DNA of 64,000 nucleotides, taken from positions 1,987,362 through 2,051,361 of the forward strand of contig CP075364.1 of assembly GCA_019454105.1 (NCBI GenBank), written 5' to 3'. The position numbers and the translations under genes are program-made. Positions 38,910 to 48,774 of the stretch are shown here, in pieces. The notes below the pieces were generated by a model that searched no databases, was not told where the DNA came from, and was given only the letters and a program-made list of their open reading frames with translations. This stretch comes from Fimbriimonadaceae bacterium (lineage in GTDB: Bacteria; Armatimonadota; Fimbriimonadia; Fimbriimonadales; Fimbriimonadaceae). Position 1 is the stretch's first letter; every line of letters begins with the position of its first letter.

Positions 38910-39703
38910 GTGTCGTTTCCTATCATTGGTTTTCGGTAGAAAAACGGAATAATGGACTCGTAACCCGTTTCTTGGGCTTTGCCCAGCCTCTCGGTACTGC
39001 CCACAAAGAGCACTCCACCAGGCTTCAGAGCCTGGAAGAAACGTCGATAGAGCAAGTCCTTTGCCTCGTCCGTGAAGTAGATGACCACGTTCCGGCAAAG
39101 GATCAAGTCAAATCCGCTGTCAAACCTGTCGCCCAAAAGGTTCTGAGTCTTGAACTCCAGCATCGCGGCAAGCTTTCGGTTCGCACGCCATTCGCCGTCC
39201 AATTTGGTCAGATACTGGCTTCGATACTCATTCGGGACGCCCTTGACGTCCGAGTCGTTGAATCTGCCTTCCTTCGCCTGGGCCAAAGCGGCCTGATCGA
39301 TGTCCGTCCCCACGATTCTGTGCGCTCCGGGGAAGTTTCGGTCCAAAATCATGGCTAAGGTGTAGGCTTCAGCACCATAGCTGCAGCCCGCGCTCCAGCA
39401 CTTAAGTCTCGGGCTCGTCTTGACGAGTTGGGGCAGCACTTTGAGCCTGAGTTCTTCCCACTTTTCAGGGTTCCGAAACAACTCGCTCACGTTGATGGCG
39501 AGTCGGTCCAAGAACCACGCCGTGTTCTCAGAAGAACTCAGCGCCCAGCTGCTGAATTCGGAGAGCGACTTGTGCTGCTTGGACTCGGCCATGCTGACGA
39601 TTCGCCTCTGAAGCTGATTGGGCTTGTACTGGTTGAGGTCAAGACCCGTCTTTTGCTTCACGGCCGCATAGTGCGCTGCCCAGTCCGATTCGCTAACTTG
39701 CAC
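38891..39703 (-). CDS. cheR: Chemotaxis receptor methyltransferase CheR
   Basis: About 270 residues from the GTG at 39703, just inside the cheB 3' end. The N-terminal helical domain is followed by the SAM domain with WSAGCSYGAEAYTLAM, GTDIDQAALAQA, LILCRNVVIYF and FVGSTERL. It adds methyl groups to glutamates of chemoreceptors. No receptor gene is in the window. Confidence 0.95.
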   Translation of the reverse strand: MQVSESDWAAHYAAVKQKTGLDLNQYKPNQLQRRIVSMAESKQHKSLSEFSSWALSSSENTAWFLDRLAINVSELFRNPEKWEELRLKVLPQLVKTSPRLKCWSAGCSYGAEAYTLAMILDRNFPGAHRIVGTDIDQAALAQAKEGRFNDSDVKGVPNEYRSQYLTKLDGEWRANRKLAAMLEFKTQNLLGDRFDSGFDLILCRNVVIYFTDEAKDLLYRRFFQALKPGGVLFVGSTERLGKAQETGYESIIPFFYRKPMIGNDTWRNAS

Positions 39704-40724
39704 GGGCAGCCCTCCTGGCCAAGTGGGCGCAGATGGCCGCAGCCATCTCTTCCACGGGGTATTCAGCGTCCACAGCACCAGCGTCCTTGGCCGACTTCGG
39801 CATGCCATAGATCGCGCAACTGGACTCCGATTCGCCAAAGACGGTGCATCCTGCCGCTTTAAGTGCCAAGGCCCCCTCGCGCCCGTCATGCCCCATCCCG
39901 GTGAGGATGACCCCCATGCAGTTCGAGCCATAGACCTTCACAGCCGATTCGAACAACTCGTCAGCCGCTGGCCGGCAACCGTTCCTTGTGGGCCCGTCGT
40001 GGAGCGCGATCGTCCCGCCGCGTTCGACCACCATGTGGTGGCCACCAGGAGCGAGGAGGGCCTCGCCGGGCCCGACCTTGTCCGACTGCCCTGCTTCGCG
40101 GACCCTCACTGGACCAACGGAGTCCAGACGCTTTGCCAAGCTCGCAGTGAAGCCGACGGGCATGTGCTGGACGATCAAGATCCGGGCATCAAACCCGACC
40201 GGAAAGGCAGAAAAGAGCGAGACCAAGGCGCGGGGGCCGCCGGTCGAACTCGCGACGAGGACGACCCGGTTGGAGGCGGCCGGCGCCGCGACGGCCGCGA
40301 CCGGTGACCGAGTTGACCCACCGAGCTTGGCAAACCGTGCGGACTTGAGCTTCTCCAAGAGCTCGTCCTTTTTCTCGGTGATTCGAAGACTGTTGGAGCC
40401 TCCAGGCTTGGTGACAAAGTCGAAGGCTCCCGCCTCGAGCGCGCGGATCGTCGTGTCGGCCCCTTCTGTGGTCACCGAACTGACCATGATGACGTGGCAA
40501 GGCGCCTTGGCCATGATCTGCTTCAAGGCCGCGAGTCCGTCCATCTTGGGCATCTCGACGTCGAGCGTGATCAAGTCGGGCTTCAGGTTGACCGCCATAT
40601 CGAGACCTTCTTCGCCGTTCGTGGCCTGGCCCACCAACTCGTAGGCCGGATCCGCGGAGACCCAGTCTGAGATCATCCGCCTCGCGAAGCTCGAATCGTC
40701 GACTACCAGAACTTTCTTTTTCAT
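39693..40724 (-). CDS. cheB: Chemotaxis methylesterase/response regulator CheB
   Basis: A 343-residue protein. A receiver domain (D9/D10, phospho-Asp55, K106) is followed by a methylesterase domain with Ser160 in ASSTGGP, His187 in VQHMP and Asp280 in GMGHDG. It removes methyl groups or deamidates receptor glutamines. The ATG shares ATGA with the HDOD gene stop. Confidence 0.96.
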   Translation of the reverse strand: MKKKVLVVDDSSFARRMISDWVSADPAYELVGQATNGEEGLDMAVNLKPDLITLDVEMPKMDGLAALKQIMAKAPCHVIMVSSVTTEGADTTIRALEAGAFDFVTKPGGSNSLRITEKKDELLEKLKSARFAKLGGSTRSPVAAVAAPAASNRVVLVASSTGGPRALVSLFSAFPVGFDARILIVQHMPVGFTASLAKRLDSVGPVRVREAGQSDKVGPGEALLAPGGHHMVVERGGTIALHDGPTRNGCRPAADELFESAVKVYGSNCMGVILTGMGHDGREGALALKAAGCTVFGESESSCAIYGMPKSAKDAGAVDAEYPVEEMAAAICAHLARRAARAS

Positions 40725-41587
40725 GCTGCGCTGAGATCCTCAAAGAGTTTTTCGTACTCCTCGTAGCCCGTGACGAACTGATCCGTGATCTGATCCAGAG
40801 CGTCCGGTTGGAGGCCAAGTCGAACGAAGGAGTTCTCACAGACCGAATAATGCAGTCCGTCTCCTCCCAGGCCAAACCCCATCGCCATCGTCAGGAAGTT
40901 GCCCAAATGGACACAGTCGACGATGTTCGAAGACGGCTGGCACTGATCCGGATCGTGGTGCCATCGGACCGCGGCCACGATCTCGTCCGGCAAGTTCCAT
41001 TGTCGGCCCAGGTGCTCTCCAACTTCACAATGGTCGTAACCCAGGATTCTTCTTTCGGCGACGTCGAACGAGACCTGGGCCAGCTCGGCATATTGAACGA
41101 TCGCGCTGGTCTTGTTCTCGAGCCAGACGCTGAGGGCGACCTTTCCAATGTCGTGCAGCAATCCGGCCGTGAAGACGACGTCCTCGCTCGCCTTCTTGCT
41201 CATCCTGGCGATCAACTGACCCGCGAGGGCCGTCCCGAACGAATGGCTCCACATCGCTTTGGGGCCTAGGCAGTAGCCGTCCAGCTTCCGTGACATCCAC
41301 GGATAGGTCGCCGCGACCATGCATAGATTACGGACACATCTCATTCCAAGAATCACGACAGATTCTTGAAGGTTGGTGACCCGCTTGGACAAGCCGTAAT
41401 AGGCGCTGTTGGCGAGTCTGAGAACGCGGGCGCTGAGGGCCTGGTCTTGCGAAAGCGTTTTCGCGATGCTGGCCGCGTTGCTCGTGCTCTCGTCCGTCTC
41501 GCGCATCACCTTAAGGGCTGCCGCCGGGATCGAAGGCAGATCCGGAGTCCGCTTGACGACGTCTTCTAATGTGATCGTCTGGCCCAT
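40721..41587 (-). CDS. HDOD domain protein in the chemotaxis operon
   Basis: A 288-residue HDOD protein. It has DLPSIPAAALKVMRETDE, QDQALSARVLRLANSAYYG, GLLHDIGKVALSVWLE and a WHHDPDQ block, so several HD-type His/Asp residues remain. Inserted between cheD and cheB and coupled to cheB by a 4-nt overlap, it probably works in the same signalling circuit. It is a paralogue of the HDOD protein at 21776-22684. Confidence 0.92.
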   Translation of the reverse strand: MGQTITLEDVVKRTPDLPSIPAAALKVMRETDESTSNAASIAKTLSQDQALSARVLRLANSAYYGLSKRVTNLQESVVILGMRCVRNLCMVAATYPWMSRKLDGYCLGPKAMWSHSFGTALAGQLIARMSKKASEDVVFTAGLLHDIGKVALSVWLENKTSAIVQYAELAQVSFDVAERRILGYDHCEVGEHLGRQWNLPDEIVAAVRWHHDPDQCQPSSNIVDCVHLGNFLTMAMGFGLGGDGLHYSVCENSFVRLGLQPDALDQITDQFVTGYEEYEKLFEDLSAA

Positions 41588-41592
41588 CTCTT

Positions 41593-42102
41593 TTATCCTC
41601 GGAGAACGCAGAGGACTTTCTCCCCCTCATTGATCGAACGCACCTTTACGGTGAGGCTCGCGATGTCCACCGTGACCGTCCTCCCGTTCGATCCGCCAAC
41701 CTCGTGCGCGATCGTCCGGATCCGGAGCTTCTCAAGCAGATCCTTGACGGCCTCGGCGTTCCGTTTGCCGATGTCGAGCCGGGAAGAGACGTCGGCTCCG
41801 ATCTTGAAGACTTGAGCTCCTCCCGCGTAAGCGGCGACCAAACGGTTGGTGTTCGCGCCTTTCGCCGCCATCATCTTCACCAATTCTGGCAAGCCGACAT
41901 CGACGAACTTCCCCGGTTTATCGATTGGCTTGTCCTTGAAGGCCTCCGGCAGCATCACATGGATCATCCCCGACACTCCGGAAGCCGGACAGTGGGCGAC
42001 GAGACCGATGCAACTTCCGAGACCGATGCAGCTATAAAGGGCTGGGCCTTGGTGGACATGGATCTCGGCCATGCCGACCAAAGTCGGAGTGGCGACGGCC
42101 AC
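41593..42102 (-). CDS. cheD: Chemoreceptor glutamine deamidase CheD
   Basis: A 169-residue protein with the CheD core: Cys31 in GLGSCIGL and His48 in GMIHVMLP, followed by AAYAGGAQVFK and the GRTVTVDIASLTV end. The third catalytic position, Thr in well-studied CheD, appears to be Cys25 or Ser24. The GTG start directly abuts the cheC stop, and CheC-CheD complexes are known from Bacillus and Thermotoga. Confidence 0.94.
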   Translation of the reverse strand: MAVATPTLVGMAEIHVHQGPALYSCIGLGSCIGLVAHCPASGVSGMIHVMLPEAFKDKPIDKPGKFVDVGLPELVKMMAAKGANTNRLVAAYAGGAQVFKIGADVSSRLDIGKRNAEAVKDLLEKLRIRTIAHEVGGSNGRTVTVDIASLTVKVRSINEGEKVLCVLRG

Positions 42103-42732
42103 CTAGGCTGCCTCCGCAACGCCTAATCTTTCGAACACAGTTTGGAGCCCGCCAGAAGCGGGCATACAGAGGAACCGGCCGTCCAGGGTCTCCGAAGACT
42201 CCTCGAAGATTCTCGTTTCAAGGGTCAAGATCTGCGTATCCTGGAAGCAGGCCTCGACGATCAGGGTCGAAACGATGCTTTGAGCCCCATCGATCGATAC
42301 GGCCGGAGGTGTCGCTTCCATCCGCAAGCCAGTCATGTCGGAGATCGCGTTCAAGAAGCTCGAGCACAAGATGTTCCCGACCTCAAGGATCGTGGAACCG
42401 AAAAGCTCGTCGATGGAGTCCAGGTCGGCCGGCGCCAAGCCTGTCAGGAGCCGAGAAAGCCGTTGAGCGCTCGCCCAAGGGAAGAAGAAGGCCGTTTGGC
42501 CTTGGACGTCACCAGTGAACGGCATTGATACCGCCACGGTCAGTTCTTCAGGATTAGTGAAGACGCACGTCAGATCCGGCGCAGCGGTCACAGACATCGA
42601 AGGGACGTCCATATTGAAGTTCTGGCCGGTCAGACTCGCCAAAGCCATCGTGGCATGGCCCAGTCCGATGTTCGTCAGCTCGCGCAAGCACGAGTCTTGA
42701 AGCTGTTCGATGGAAGATTCGTTCGAGCCCAT
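42103..42732 (-). CDS. cheC: CheY-P phosphatase CheC
   Basis: A 209-residue protein with two pseudo-symmetric active-site helices: RELTNIGLGHATMALASLTG near the N-terminus and STILEVGNILCSSFLNAI in the second half. It dephosphorylates CheY-P and binds CheD. It is the first gene of the chemotaxis block. The 190-nt divergent gap to the carrier-protein gene must hold both promoters, but I see no convincing -35/-10 pair. Confidence 0.94.
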   Translation of the reverse strand: MGSNESSIEQLQDSCLRELTNIGLGHATMALASLTGQNFNMDVPSMSVTAAPDLTCVFTNPEELTVAVSMPFTGDVQGQTAFFFPWASAQRLSRLLTGLAPADLDSIDELFGSTILEVGNILCSSFLNAISDMTGLRMEATPPAVSIDGAQSIVSTLIVEACFQDTQILTLETRIFEESSETLDGRFLCMPASGGLQTVFERLGVAEAA

Positions 42733-42922: not shown

Positions 42923-43336
42923 GTGGCTGACCTTGAAATGCAGGACGTCAAGGCTGCGCTTGACGCGGCTGTGCGGAACGGCTACAAGTACGTCAAGCTG
43001 AAGAGCGGAAGCGAGGAGTTCGTCGCCGAAGTCCGTGCAAGCTCACGCAAGCAGACGGTACCCAAGGCCGCTGCCGCTCCCGCTCTTGACCAGGTTCTAT
43101 CCGAGCCGACCCTTGCTGAGGTCAAATCACCGGTGGTCGGGTACTTCCGCGAGCGGTCTCATCCCTTGGAGCCAGGCCTCGAAGTGGAAGCTGGGCAAGT
43201 CATCGCCGAAGTCGTCGCGGTCGGCTTGTCGAACGACGTTGTCTGCCCGATCCAGGGCGTGGTCGATTCGGTGGCCGTCCGTCCCGGGGATCCCCTCGAA
43301 TATGGCCAGGTGATCGCCCTTGTGAGGCCCTCATGA
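42923..43336 (+). CDS. Biotin-carrier-like (AccB/BCCP) protein lacking the biotin lysine
   Basis: A 137-residue protein. The N-terminal helix-strand (residues 1-45) and linker lead to a biotinyl/lipoyl beta-hammerhead domain (65-137): SPVVGYF, GLEVEAGQVIAEV, then AVGLSND and CPIQGVV. Aligned without gaps to E. coli BCCP (EAMKMMN), the modified Lys is Gly101 (codon 43223-43225, GGC) and the preceding Met is Val100. It therefore cannot be biotinylated at the normal place. It is encoded upstream of accC, with one small gene between them. GTG start at 42923. Confidence 0.85.
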   Translation: MADLEMQDVKAALDAAVRNGYKYVKLKSGSEEFVAEVRASSRKQTVPKAAAAPALDQVLSEPTLAEVKSPVVGYFRERSHPLEPGLEVEAGQVIAEVVAVGLSNDVVCPIQGVVDSVAVRPGDPLEYGQVIALVRPS

Positions 43337-43707
43337 CACGGGGCGAGTCCCTTGTCGGCGTTCTCGTCGCAGTCGCCATCGTGATCTTGCTCGCGGTGGC
43401 TTTCTCTGTTGGGAGCGGAGTCTTTGGCGGCCAAGGCGGGGCGACAAGGGCTGACGGCAAGGGGGAAACCATCATCGGTCGGTCGAAGTTTGCGGCCAAG
43501 GACGTCGAGTGCCGGAACAACCTCTCTCAGCTCCGGACAGCCATCCAGATCGCCACGGACCCGGTCGACGGCACAAAGCCCTCGACCCTTCAAGAGACCC
43601 GACTGGGACGCGACTTCTATCGGTGCCCGGTCGGGGAAGAGGACTATGACTACGACCCGGAATCGGGAACGGTGAGATGTCCGCACAAAGGGCACGAGAA
43701 ATACTAA
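43333..43707 (+). CDS. Pseudopilin-like small protein
   Basis: A 124-residue protein whose N-terminus, MTRGESLVGVLVAVAIVILL, resembles a prepilin leader (short basic lead, Gly, then a hydrophobic helix). It is followed by ECRNNLSQLRTAIQIA, a motif of G/H-type pseudopilins. The tail has CPVG and CPHKGH, possibly a Cys pair. It overlaps the carrier gene (ATGA) and the accC start (TAATG), an unexpected position between two carboxylase-type genes. Confidence 0.75.
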   Translation: MTRGESLVGVLVAVAIVILLAVAFSVGSGVFGGQGGATRADGKGETIIGRSKFAAKDVECRNNLSQLRTAIQIATDPVDGTKPSTLQETRLGRDFYRCPVGEEDYDYDPESGTVRCPHKGHEKY

Positions 43708-45068
43708 TGTTCGAGAAGGTACTGATCGCCAACCGGGGCGAAATCGCTTGTCGGGTCATCCGGGCTTGTCACGTACTCGGGCTCCAGACTGTGGCCGTCT
43801 ATTCCAAAGCCGACCGGGAGAGCCGCCACGTTTCTATGGCGGACGAGGCGATCTGCATCGGGGAAGGGCCCAACATGGACAGTTATCTCAACCTTCCCAA
43901 CGTTCTCATGGCCATCGAGATCTCTGGGGCGCAAGCCGTCCACCCAGGATTTGGCTACTTTAGCGAGAACGCCCGTTTCGCCGAAGAAGTCGCCCTGATG
44001 GGCGTGAAGTTCATTGGCCCGCCAGTGGGCGCCATTCGGGGCATGGGCGACAAAGACAAAGCCAAGCGGTCGGCGATCGAGGCCGGGTGCCCAGTCGTAC
44101 CAGGTTCCGAAGGGGCCGTCTCGGGCGAGGCCGAGGCGGCCAAGGTCGCTAGCGAGATCGGATACCCTGTTTTGCTCAAGGCAGTGGCCGGTGGGGGGGG
44201 GCGCGGAATCCGGCGCGTGAACAGCGAAGCCGAAATAGCCCAGGTCTTCAAGACCGCGCAACAAGAGGCTGCCGCCAGCTTCGGAAACGACGACATGCTC
44301 GTCGAGAAGTTCGTCATCGAGCCTCGACACGTCGAAATGCAGCTCTTGGGCGATGAACACGGCACCATGCTCTACCTCGGAGAGCGGGAGTGCAGCGTTC
44401 AAAACTTGCGGCACCAAAAGATCGTCGAAGAGGCTCCGTGCGCGAGCTTGACCCCAGAAGCGCGAAAGGACATGGGCGAGGCGGCCGTGCGGGTGGCCCG
44501 GTCAGTCGGGTACACGAACGCTGGGACCGTCGAGTTCTTGCTGGACCGAGACGGAAAGTTCTACTTCCTCGAGATGAACACGAGGATCCAGGTGGAGCAT
44601 CCCGTCACCGAGCTGGTCACAGGGCTGGACATAGTGGCCTGGCAGATCAGGATCGCCGCGGGAGAGCGGCTCCCGATTGGACAAGAGGAGATCGCTTGCC
44701 GCGGGCACGCGATCGAGGCCAGGATCACCGCCCAAGACCCGGATCGCGACTTCGCCCCTTCAGCGGGGAAGGTCACGGTCTGGAACCCGCCTGGGTTTGC
44801 CAACGTCCGGCTCGACACCCACGTGACAACCGGGTTCACGGTCGCACCCTTCTATGACCCGATGATCGCCAAGCTCATCGTTTGGGGGGAGAACCGCGAG
44901 GCTGCGGTCAGGCTCCTCCAAGTCGCCCTGCGCGAGTTCGAGGTGGAAGGCATTCAGACCAATATTCCGTTCCTCATCAGGTTGACGGCCCATCCAGACT
45001 ACGTTCGAGGCGACGTCAGCACCGCCTTCGTCCCCAACTTCCTCAGCGAGTCGCCAGTTGTTGCCTGA
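43707..45068 (+). CDS. accC: Biotin carboxylase subunit AccC
   Basis: A 453-residue ATP-grasp enzyme that carboxylates biotin on its carrier protein for acetyl-CoA (or propionyl-CoA) carboxylase. Starts FEKVLIANRGEIACRVIRA (ATG at 43707). GGGGRGIRRVNSE is the Gly-rich ATP loop, and FLEMNTRIQVEHPVTE carries the catalytic and Mg ligands. Normal length. The true carrier protein may be encoded elsewhere, since the linked one lacks the lysine. Confidence 0.97.
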   Translation: MFEKVLIANRGEIACRVIRACHVLGLQTVAVYSKADRESRHVSMADEAICIGEGPNMDSYLNLPNVLMAIEISGAQAVHPGFGYFSENARFAEEVALMGVKFIGPPVGAIRGMGDKDKAKRSAIEAGCPVVPGSEGAVSGEAEAAKVASEIGYPVLLKAVAGGGGRGIRRVNSEAEIAQVFKTAQQEAAASFGNDDMLVEKFVIEPRHVEMQLLGDEHGTMLYLGERECSVQNLRHQKIVEEAPCASLTPEARKDMGEAAVRVARSVGYTNAGTVEFLLDRDGKFYFLEMNTRIQVEHPVTELVTGLDIVAWQIRIAAGERLPIGQEEIACRGHAIEARITAQDPDRDFAPSAGKVTVWNPPGFANVRLDTHVTTGFTVAPFYDPMIAKLIVWGENREAAVRLLQVALREFEVEGIQTNIPFLIRLTAHPDYVRGDVSTAFVPNFLSESPVVA

Positions 45069-45588
45069 GTCCCCTACCGGCCGCCGTGCCGCCCGTCTCG
45101 CCGCCTTTCAGGCGGCCTACGCTATGGCGGTGGGTGGACTGTCCGCAAGAGAGGCCCTGGACGCTGTCCACGAAGCCGGTGGCGAGCCAGGGCCTTTCAC
45201 CGACCGGATTTTGGCCCTCTTGCAAGGGCGAGAGGAGGGTTGGGACTCCTGCTTCGAGCCATGCTTGGCCGATGGTTGGCCGCTCGCGAGGCTGAGCTGG
45301 ACGGACCGCGTCATCTTGCGGCTGGCCTGCTGCGAGCTTTGGGGACTGCCTGACGTGCCTCCCCGCGTCACGATCGCCGAATATGTGGGGATTTCCAAGA
45401 AGTTCGGATCGCCCGAGAGCAGCAAGTTTGTCAACGGCGTCCTCGCCTGCGCGCTCGCTCGGTCGCCGAAGGCCGACTGGTCGCCGACCGACGCGCCAGA
45501 GCCAGATCCGACCGAGGAGAAGGAACCCGAGGGCGCGCGGATTGTCGAAGAGGAGTCCAGCCCCTGGGTGATCCGTACGGAGGCATGA
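45058..45588 (+). CDS. nusB: Transcription antitermination protein NusB
   Basis: A 176-residue NusB: GRRAARLAAFQAAYAM at the N-terminus, LSWTDRVILRLACCELWG and TIAEYVGISKKFGSPESSKFVNGVL at the conserved C-terminal helices. It binds boxA RNA with NusE in rRNA antitermination. The C-terminal 40 residues are an acidic extension beyond the usual fold. The start is TTG at 45058 or 45061, inside the accC 3' end. Confidence 0.93.
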   Translation: MLPESPTGRRAARLAAFQAAYAMAVGGLSAREALDAVHEAGGEPGPFTDRILALLQGREEGWDSCFEPCLADGWPLARLSWTDRVILRLACCELWGLPDVPPRVTIAEYVGISKKFGSPESSKFVNGVLACALARSPKADWSPTDAPEPDPTEEKEPEGARIVEEESSPWVIRTEA

Positions 45589-46923: not shown

Positions 46924-48774
46924 ATGGCCAAACTCATCGGGACGGCGGGTCATGTTGACCACGGCAAAACGAGCCTGATCGAGGCCTTGACAGGCATCAA
47001 CGCCGACCGGCTTCCCGAAGAGAGGATCCGAGGCCTGACCATTGATGTGGGCTTCGCCCACATCGACTTTCCAGGGATCGGTCGCGTTTCGATAGTCGAT
47101 GTTCCTGGCCATGAACGCTTCGTCACGAACATGTTGGTCGGCGCCCTGGGTGTCGATGTGGGGTTGCTCTGCGTCGCGGCCGACGAATCAGTCATGCCCC
47201 AGACGATGGAGCACCTTCAGATCCTGGAACTGCTTCCGGTCGCATCTCTTGTCGTCGCGATGACCCGGGCCGATCTTGCCGATCCTGACCGACGGGACGT
47301 CACGAGATCGGAGATCCGCGAATCCTTGGAAGCGACGCGTTTTTCGGACGCTCCGATCATCCCGGTCTCGGTCGTGACCGGCGAGGGGCTGGACTCCTTG
47401 CGGGACACATTGAGCGAGAAACTGGGGCAAGAGGGACCGGGCTCGCCAGGGCCTTGGTATCTGCCGATCGACCGGGTCTTCACCGTCAAGGGGCACGGGA
47501 CGGTCGTGACAGGCACCCTGATGTCCGGGAGGGTCGAAGAGGGAACGAGCGCGGTGGTCCAACCTCTTGGTTTGCCCGCTCGGATCCGGCAGATTCAGCG
47601 ACACGACGAGCCCGCCTTGTGGAGCGAGAAGGGCCATCGAACGGCTCTTAATCTTGGCGGAGTGCGGCACGACGAACTTCGCCGGGGCATGGTGATCGGC
47701 TCACAAGGGCTCGTCCATGCGACGTCCGTCTTAGACGCTCGCGCCCGCTTCGTCATCGAGCCGAAACACGGGGCGAGGATCCGGCTCTCTCTTGGGTCCG
47801 ACGAAGTCATCGGCAAGGTTTTCTTGAATGATGACGATCCTACGCTCGTCCAGCTGAGACTCGAAAGGCCTTGCGCGGCGGTCGCCGGGCAACCCCTGAT
47901 CGTCCGCCGGTACAGTCCTCCAGAGGTCATGGCAGGGGGACGGGTCGTCGTGCCAGTCGCAGAACCTCGCCGAAAGAACCAGCGGGCCGTCACGACGCAA
48001 GCGGCCGGACTGACTGACCAACTGGTTGACTTGGTCGGGAGGGCCCCTGAAGGGCTCTTGACCGCCCAGGCGGCGAGAGCGGCAGGTCGGACTGGACCCG
48101 AACTGGCCACGGCTTTCGAGCGCCTGAAAGCTGACGGAAGGCTCCTTAGCTTTGCCGGCCTCTGGTTCACTCCTGAGACTTTCGAGAGAGCGTCGCAAGT
48201 GTTTGAGGCCGCGCTAGGAGAACTTCATCAGGCGAATCGGGGCCGCCCGCTGCTTCCCCGGGAAGCTGTTGTCAAGAAGGCGGGCCTCACCTGGGCTGGC
48301 AAGCCCCTCGACCGCATCCTGGCCCACCTTGTCTCTTTGGGCCACCTCCGCGCTGATGGCTCTACGGTGGCATTATCGAGTCACCGGGTAACCCTTGAGC
48401 CAAAGCAACGCGCCTTCTTGGAGCGGATCAAGTCCGCCCTCGACGCAGGAGGGACGAATCCGCCGTCTGCAAAGACCATCGCGACGGACCTCAACGTGCC
48501 TGTCCAAGCAGTGGAGGGGATTATCAAGCTTGGGCTCGACGCCGGTGAGATCGTGCGGCTCGACGAACAAGTCTTTTTCACTCCTGGCCAAGTGGAGAGG
48601 TCGATTCAAGCTGCGAAAAGCGCGTTCGGGGCCTCACCTTTCACTGCGGCCGAATTCAAGCAAGCGATTGGCACTTCTCGAAAGTTCGCCATCCCTCTGC
48701 TGGAACATTCAGACTCAAAAGGGTGGACAGTCCGGAGGGGAGATCAAAGAATCTTCACCGACCAGCCAAGCTGA
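46924..48774 (+). CDS. selB: Selenocysteine-specific elongation factor SelB
   Basis: A 616-residue translational GTPase that delivers Sec-tRNA to UGA codons. It has G1 GHVDHGKT (9-16), RGLTIDVGF with the SelB-type switch, DVPGHERFV, then beta-barrels and C-terminal winged-helix repeats that bind the SECIS RNA (EPKQRAFLERIKSAL, FTAAEFKQAIGTSRKFAIPLLEHSD in parts). selA, selD and tRNA-Sec are not in the window. It overlaps the convergent ABC-like gene by 20 nt. Confidence 0.95.
   Translation: MAKLIGTAGHVDHGKTSLIEALTGINADRLPEERIRGLTIDVGFAHIDFPGIGRVSIVDVPGHERFVTNMLVGALGVDVGLLCVAADESVMPQTMEHLQILELLPVASLVVAMTRADLADPDRRDVTRSEIRESLEATRFSDAPIIPVSVVTGEGLDSLRDTLSEKLGQEGPGSPGPWYLPIDRVFTVKGHGTVVTGTLMSGRVEEGTSAVVQPLGLPARIRQIQRHDEPALWSEKGHRTALNLGGVRHDELRRGMVIGSQGLVHATSVLDARARFVIEPKHGARIRLSLGSDEVIGKVFLNDDDPTLVQLRLERPCAAVAGQPLIVRRYSPPEVMAGGRVVVPVAEPRRKNQRAVTTQAAGLTDQLVDLVGRAPEGLLTAQAARAAGRTGPELATAFERLKADGRLLSFAGLWFTPETFERASQVFEAALGELHQANRGRPLLPREAVVKKAGLTWAGKPLDRILAHLVSLGHLRADGSTVALSSHRVTLEPKQRAFLERIKSALDAGGTNPPSAKTIATDLNVPVQAVEGIIKLGLDAGEIVRLDEQVFFTPGQVERSIQAAKSAFGASPFTAAEFKQAIGTSRKFAIPLLEHSDSKGWTVRRGDQRIFTDQPS

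Follow-up and report, generated by a model that had tools for sequence, protein, structure and literature searches.

Carrier subunits of acetyl-CoA carboxylase, the enzyme that opens fatty-acid synthesis, have so far been described in a non-biotinylated form only from plants, and opinions differ on whether this form is a glue or a brake. The plant BADC proteins (BADC1-3 in Arabidopsis) were first described as inhibitors and later as the glue of the BC-BCCP unit (PMC11926652); they have also been presented as competitors of BCCP for BC (PMC7712654) and have been called unique to the plant enzyme (PMC11926652). On the bacterial side, the actinobacterial acyl-CoA carboxylases possess AccE, a non-catalytic subunit that is said to hold the enzyme together (cited in PMC11926652); accE is also named in PMC3199775, with only a helix mentioned. 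By description, AccE resembles the protein presented here, in its proposed role, as an extra non-catalytic carboxylase subunit in bacteria. To our knowledge, AccE is not a carrier-domain protein. We found no report of a bacterial non-biotinylated AccB paralogue in the open literature that we searched.

We describe here an accB-like gene from a 64,000-nucleotide stretch of a Fimbriimonadaceae genome, phylum Armatimonadota, referred to below as the window (Table 1). Judged from its sequence, the gene encodes a full-length AccB paralogue without the acceptor lysine; it lies in one run with accC, and the genome has a separate, lysine-bearing AccB besides. As in E. coli AccB, its product comprises an N-terminal domain (here a helix-hairpin), a linker and a biotinyl-type hammerhead domain, and the gene lies in a run with accC, as in the accBC operon; unlike in the E. 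coli operon, the biotin-carrying AccB is encoded elsewhere. An earlier note on this DNA had delimited the feature as 43160-43336, a range that is in frame and covers only the C-terminal part of the gene.

Table 1. Features of the accB-like locus, in coordinates of the window
Feature	Position	Strand	Details
accB-like gene, AccB paralogue without biotinyl lysine	42923..43336	+	137 aa, GTG start
N-terminal helix and hairpin, residues 6-36, expected AccC-docking part	42938..43030	+	AlphaFold2 secondary structure; docking predicted from E. coli AccB models (PMC10863985)
Biotinyl-type hammerhead domain, residues 65-137; shortened thumb loop, residues 74-84	43115..43333	+	Pfam, AlphaFold2, Foldseek
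Codon GGC, Gly101, position of the biotinylated lysine	43223..43225	+	Alignment with E. coli AccB
Prepilin-like ORF, between accB-like gene and accC, overlapping both by a few bases	43333..43707	+	124 aa; relatives in 90 genomes
accC, biotin carboxylase	43707..45068	+	TIGR00514, 633 bits (cut-off 626.5)
nusB, next in the conserved run	45058..45588	+	TIGR01951, over cut-off; order kept in relatives

Val100 (GTC) and Gly101 (GGC) stand where AccB has Met-Lys, and V-A-V-G is found instead of the E-x-M-K motif of functional AccB/BCCP. These residues and the reading frame are as the earlier note had given them, N104 is indeed kept, and the acceptor lysine is absent, in agreement with its statement that biotin cannot be attached at this position. 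The alignment with E. coli BCCP, which it had described as ungapped, is so from about G85 on; upstream of this point the thumb loop has 11 residues versus 16 in canonical AccB. The accB-like proteins differ from E. coli AccB in the missing lysine, in the replacement of the preceding Met by Val or Leu, and in the shorter thumb, an element that, according to an E. coli model in the literature, touches biotin ligase (PMC10863985). With 34.8 bits, the protein passes the cut-off of the Pfam Biotin_lipoyl family (22.1) and, with 34.8 bits again, falls far under that of the NCBIfam BCCP equivalog TIGR00531 (115.2).

The fold itself is intact, as had been proposed. The AlphaFold2 model, built on an alignment of the family (A1), shows a helix at residues 6-18 followed by a hairpin at residues 23-36. 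The linker is predicted poorly and the hammerhead domain well, with block-mean pLDDT values of 89-97 over residues 61-137; G101 lies in the turn that joins strand 93-99 to strand 102-107. The top Foldseek match is the biotinyl domain of E. coli (1bdo), and the E. coli BCCP-BC complex (4hr7) is also among the best. The sequence profile of the family aligns over residues 20-175 of E. coli AccB, N-terminal part included, so that model, Foldseek and profile all point to a hammerhead biotinyl fold joined to an AccB-type N-terminal part. Taken alone, the N-terminal part shows a weak likeness to the N-termini of stand-alone AccB proteins (18 of 71 at E<1, versus 1 of 213 shuffles). Phmmer matches to designed armadillo proteins were discarded, as they are due to the low-complexity linker.

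The gene had been noted to precede accC in a run of overlapping genes. The run holds, with the difference that the prepilin-like ORF intervenes: the stop of the accB-like gene overlaps the ATG of this ORF, the stop of the latter overlaps the accC start, and accC overlaps nusB. The same order of four genes recurs across the phylum, also outside the class of the window. The prepilin-like protein has a hydrophobic N-terminus and a C-terminal CPVG...YxYDP.TG.V.CPH.GHE.Y pattern, and a prepilin N-terminal domain was recognised in one of its relatives. We may hypothesize that the accB-like and prepilin-like proteins together position the carboxylase at the membrane, since the ORF accompanies the accB-like gene in most genomes read and since another membrane protein docks the carboxylase in plants (PMC7712654). 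However, gene order is the sole link between the two proteins, and at three loci (L049, L052 and L063) accC is present while no prepilin-like match is found, which makes such a membrane-linked scaffold improbable.

That the accB-like gene comes first in its run and has a strongly conserved N-terminal part, with A16 and A35 invariant in 40 family copies, is also what would be expected of an N-terminal regulator of the E. coli kind whose carrier domain is a leftover. Yet such a regulator would not need a carrier domain, and G73, G85, G101 and G112 in this domain are conserved as strongly as the N-terminus. Also against it, nine Gly-bearing copies, all of family f2 in the window's order (L029, L079, L081, L196-L199, L201 and L203), were not found adjoining accC. 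We consider this explanation unlikely. No prepilin-like ORF was found beside these nine either; the one at L196 sits upstream of a cinA-type gene.

The genome, a single contig of 2.74 Mb that is 99% complete, encodes the other carrier whose existence the earlier note had required: a canonical AccB of 150 aa with the motif EAMKV at G000:C1:790050-790265 (minus strand). The lysine-less copy need not, therefore, leave AccC without a carrier. A short carrier with VVEAMKM is encoded at C1:1827061. The accC of the window is the only match in the genome over the TIGR00514 cut-off, and we observed one AccA over cut-off and one biotin-ligase-type domain.

Within the class of the window, the position of residue 101 was read in 58 accB-like copies: it is occupied by Gly in 57 and by Thr in one, so that Gly101 is conserved in relatives. 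G101 is also one of five invariant columns in alignment A1. A profile made from 27 copies matches 110 of the 113 genomes of the class, where a match may also be a canonical AccB. Between closely related accB-like copies, the dN/dS ratio comes to about 0.09 for one pair and, depending on the method, to 0.13-0.30 for a second; these values indicate that the gene is under purifying selection. A decaying duplicate, a recent mutation or a sequencing error might be suspected from the loss of the acceptor lysine and from a residue that differs between classes; the open frame, the near-constant Gly, the low dN/dS and the conserved gene order led us to reject this explanation, to which we attach almost no credence. 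The case that the earlier note had named as refuting its reading, a recent mutation or an error, is thereby excluded.

In most of the main family, the turn motif now reads A-L-G-[LI]-A-N-[DE]. A new conserved motif at the turn is unlike random decay and could be taken to mean that the carrier domain binds or carries a ligand other than biotin at this site. But the acceptor has not been replaced by a conserved Lys, Cys or Ser, a tight turn accounts for the motif, and the position is taken by Arg, His, Thr or Lys in other classes. A non-biotin ligand is, in our opinion, very unlikely.

Across Armatimonadota, the copies that we read comprise 109 of the accC-linked type, drawn from 45 families, and 71 that stand alone, drawn from 42. 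The stand-alone AccB proteins are uniform, with Lys and a 16-residue thumb loop in 71 of 71, and in a tree computed without the motif columns they all fall into a single group (local support 96%). In the linked type, the acceptor position holds Gly (66 copies), Lys (23), Arg (11), Thr (3), His (3), Asp (1), Asn (1) or Ser (1), and 91 of the 109 copies have a thumb loop of fewer than 16 residues. An initial expectation that Gly would be found throughout the phylum thus proved wrong, since Lys, Arg, Thr, His, Asp, Asn or Ser occurs in classes other than that of the window. Within the stretch read, accC and/or the prepilin-like ORF lies downstream of 98 of the 109 linked copies; the other 11 were assigned to the linked type by residue or motif, so that this label is partly circular, and the tree groups them with the linked copies. 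Most genomes of the phylum give at least two profile matches, a count that by itself cannot tell AccB copies from other carriers.

The presence of Lys-bearing copies within the linked type points to a loss of the lysine inside the phylum, and seven different replacement residues suggest several loss events. When Lys and non-Lys are mapped on a quick tree built from the linked copies, at least nine changes are needed, of which only two are forced by well-supported branches, leaving the number of losses uncertain. We conclude that the lysine of the linked type was probably lost several times. The 23 Lys-keeping linked copies, all from other classes, may be ordinary carriers; in one such lineage the motif reads ESMKLMNDV. 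In four of the linked copies with Lys (L089 in G115, L087 in G177, L122 in G246 and L130 in G248), the residue before Lys is Leu, not Met. A separate observation concerns two genomes of one family (G028 and G093; 1.5 Mb, 97% complete), in which the AccB profile gives no match for either copy; they may have lost the AccB-dependent fatty-acid route.

Loss of the lysine and of the complete thumb, with the predicted docking part and the domain fold retained, is consistent with a subunit that sits uncharged on AccC. We hence propose, with a probability of about 0.6, that the accB-like gene encodes a non-biotinylated pseudo-carrier subunit that docks on AccC and has a structural or regulatory role, as the earlier note had envisaged among other possibilities. 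The N-terminal helix-hairpin would dock on AccC, and the protein would occupy carrier positions in a subcomplex of the AccB4:AccC2 type without being charged with biotin. It may then either aid AccC-AccB assembly or lower activity by competition, while the true AccB, encoded elsewhere, would carry the biotin.

This pseudo-carrier shares with plant BADC the property of being a BCCP homologue without a biotinylation motif beside a true BCCP. Unlike BADC, the accB-like gene is bacterial and encoded with accC, the lysine is kept in some lineages, and binding to AccC is a prediction from gene order and a conserved N-terminal part. In its presumed working, the accB-like protein of Armatimonadota would be a bacterial counterpart of BADC, probably of independent origin; we do not claim that it belongs to the BADC family. 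Extended to the phylum, our proposal is that the acetyl-CoA carboxylase of Armatimonadota has a dedicated pseudo-carrier encoded with accC, which lost its lysine several times and kept the fold and the predicted docking part, as a separately evolved counterpart of BADC; we regard this wider statement as evenly poised between true and false. If true, it would mean that a carrier can lose its catalytic role and still persist as a scaffold or brake. The probable repeated loss of the lysine, together with the lineages that keep it, would provide natural replicates that separate the scaffold role from the carrier role. On a practical note, lysine-less accB-like genes may be mistaken for functional BCCP in genome-based models of fatty-acid synthesis.

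Every AccB read in 13 genomes of other phyla has Lys, these genomes having been reached via AccB matches and hence forming no fair survey. The second AccB of a planctomycete (L290), considered as a candidate motif-less copy, reads ETMK and is a Lys copy. In the window itself, the surroundings of the run include chemotaxis-type genes on the minus strand at 39693-42732 (CheB-like and HDOD-like ORFs, recognised by eye, with CheD and CheC) and, at 46924-48774 on the plus strand, an ORF of 616 aa that by eye resembles SelB, the selenocysteine-specific elongation factor.
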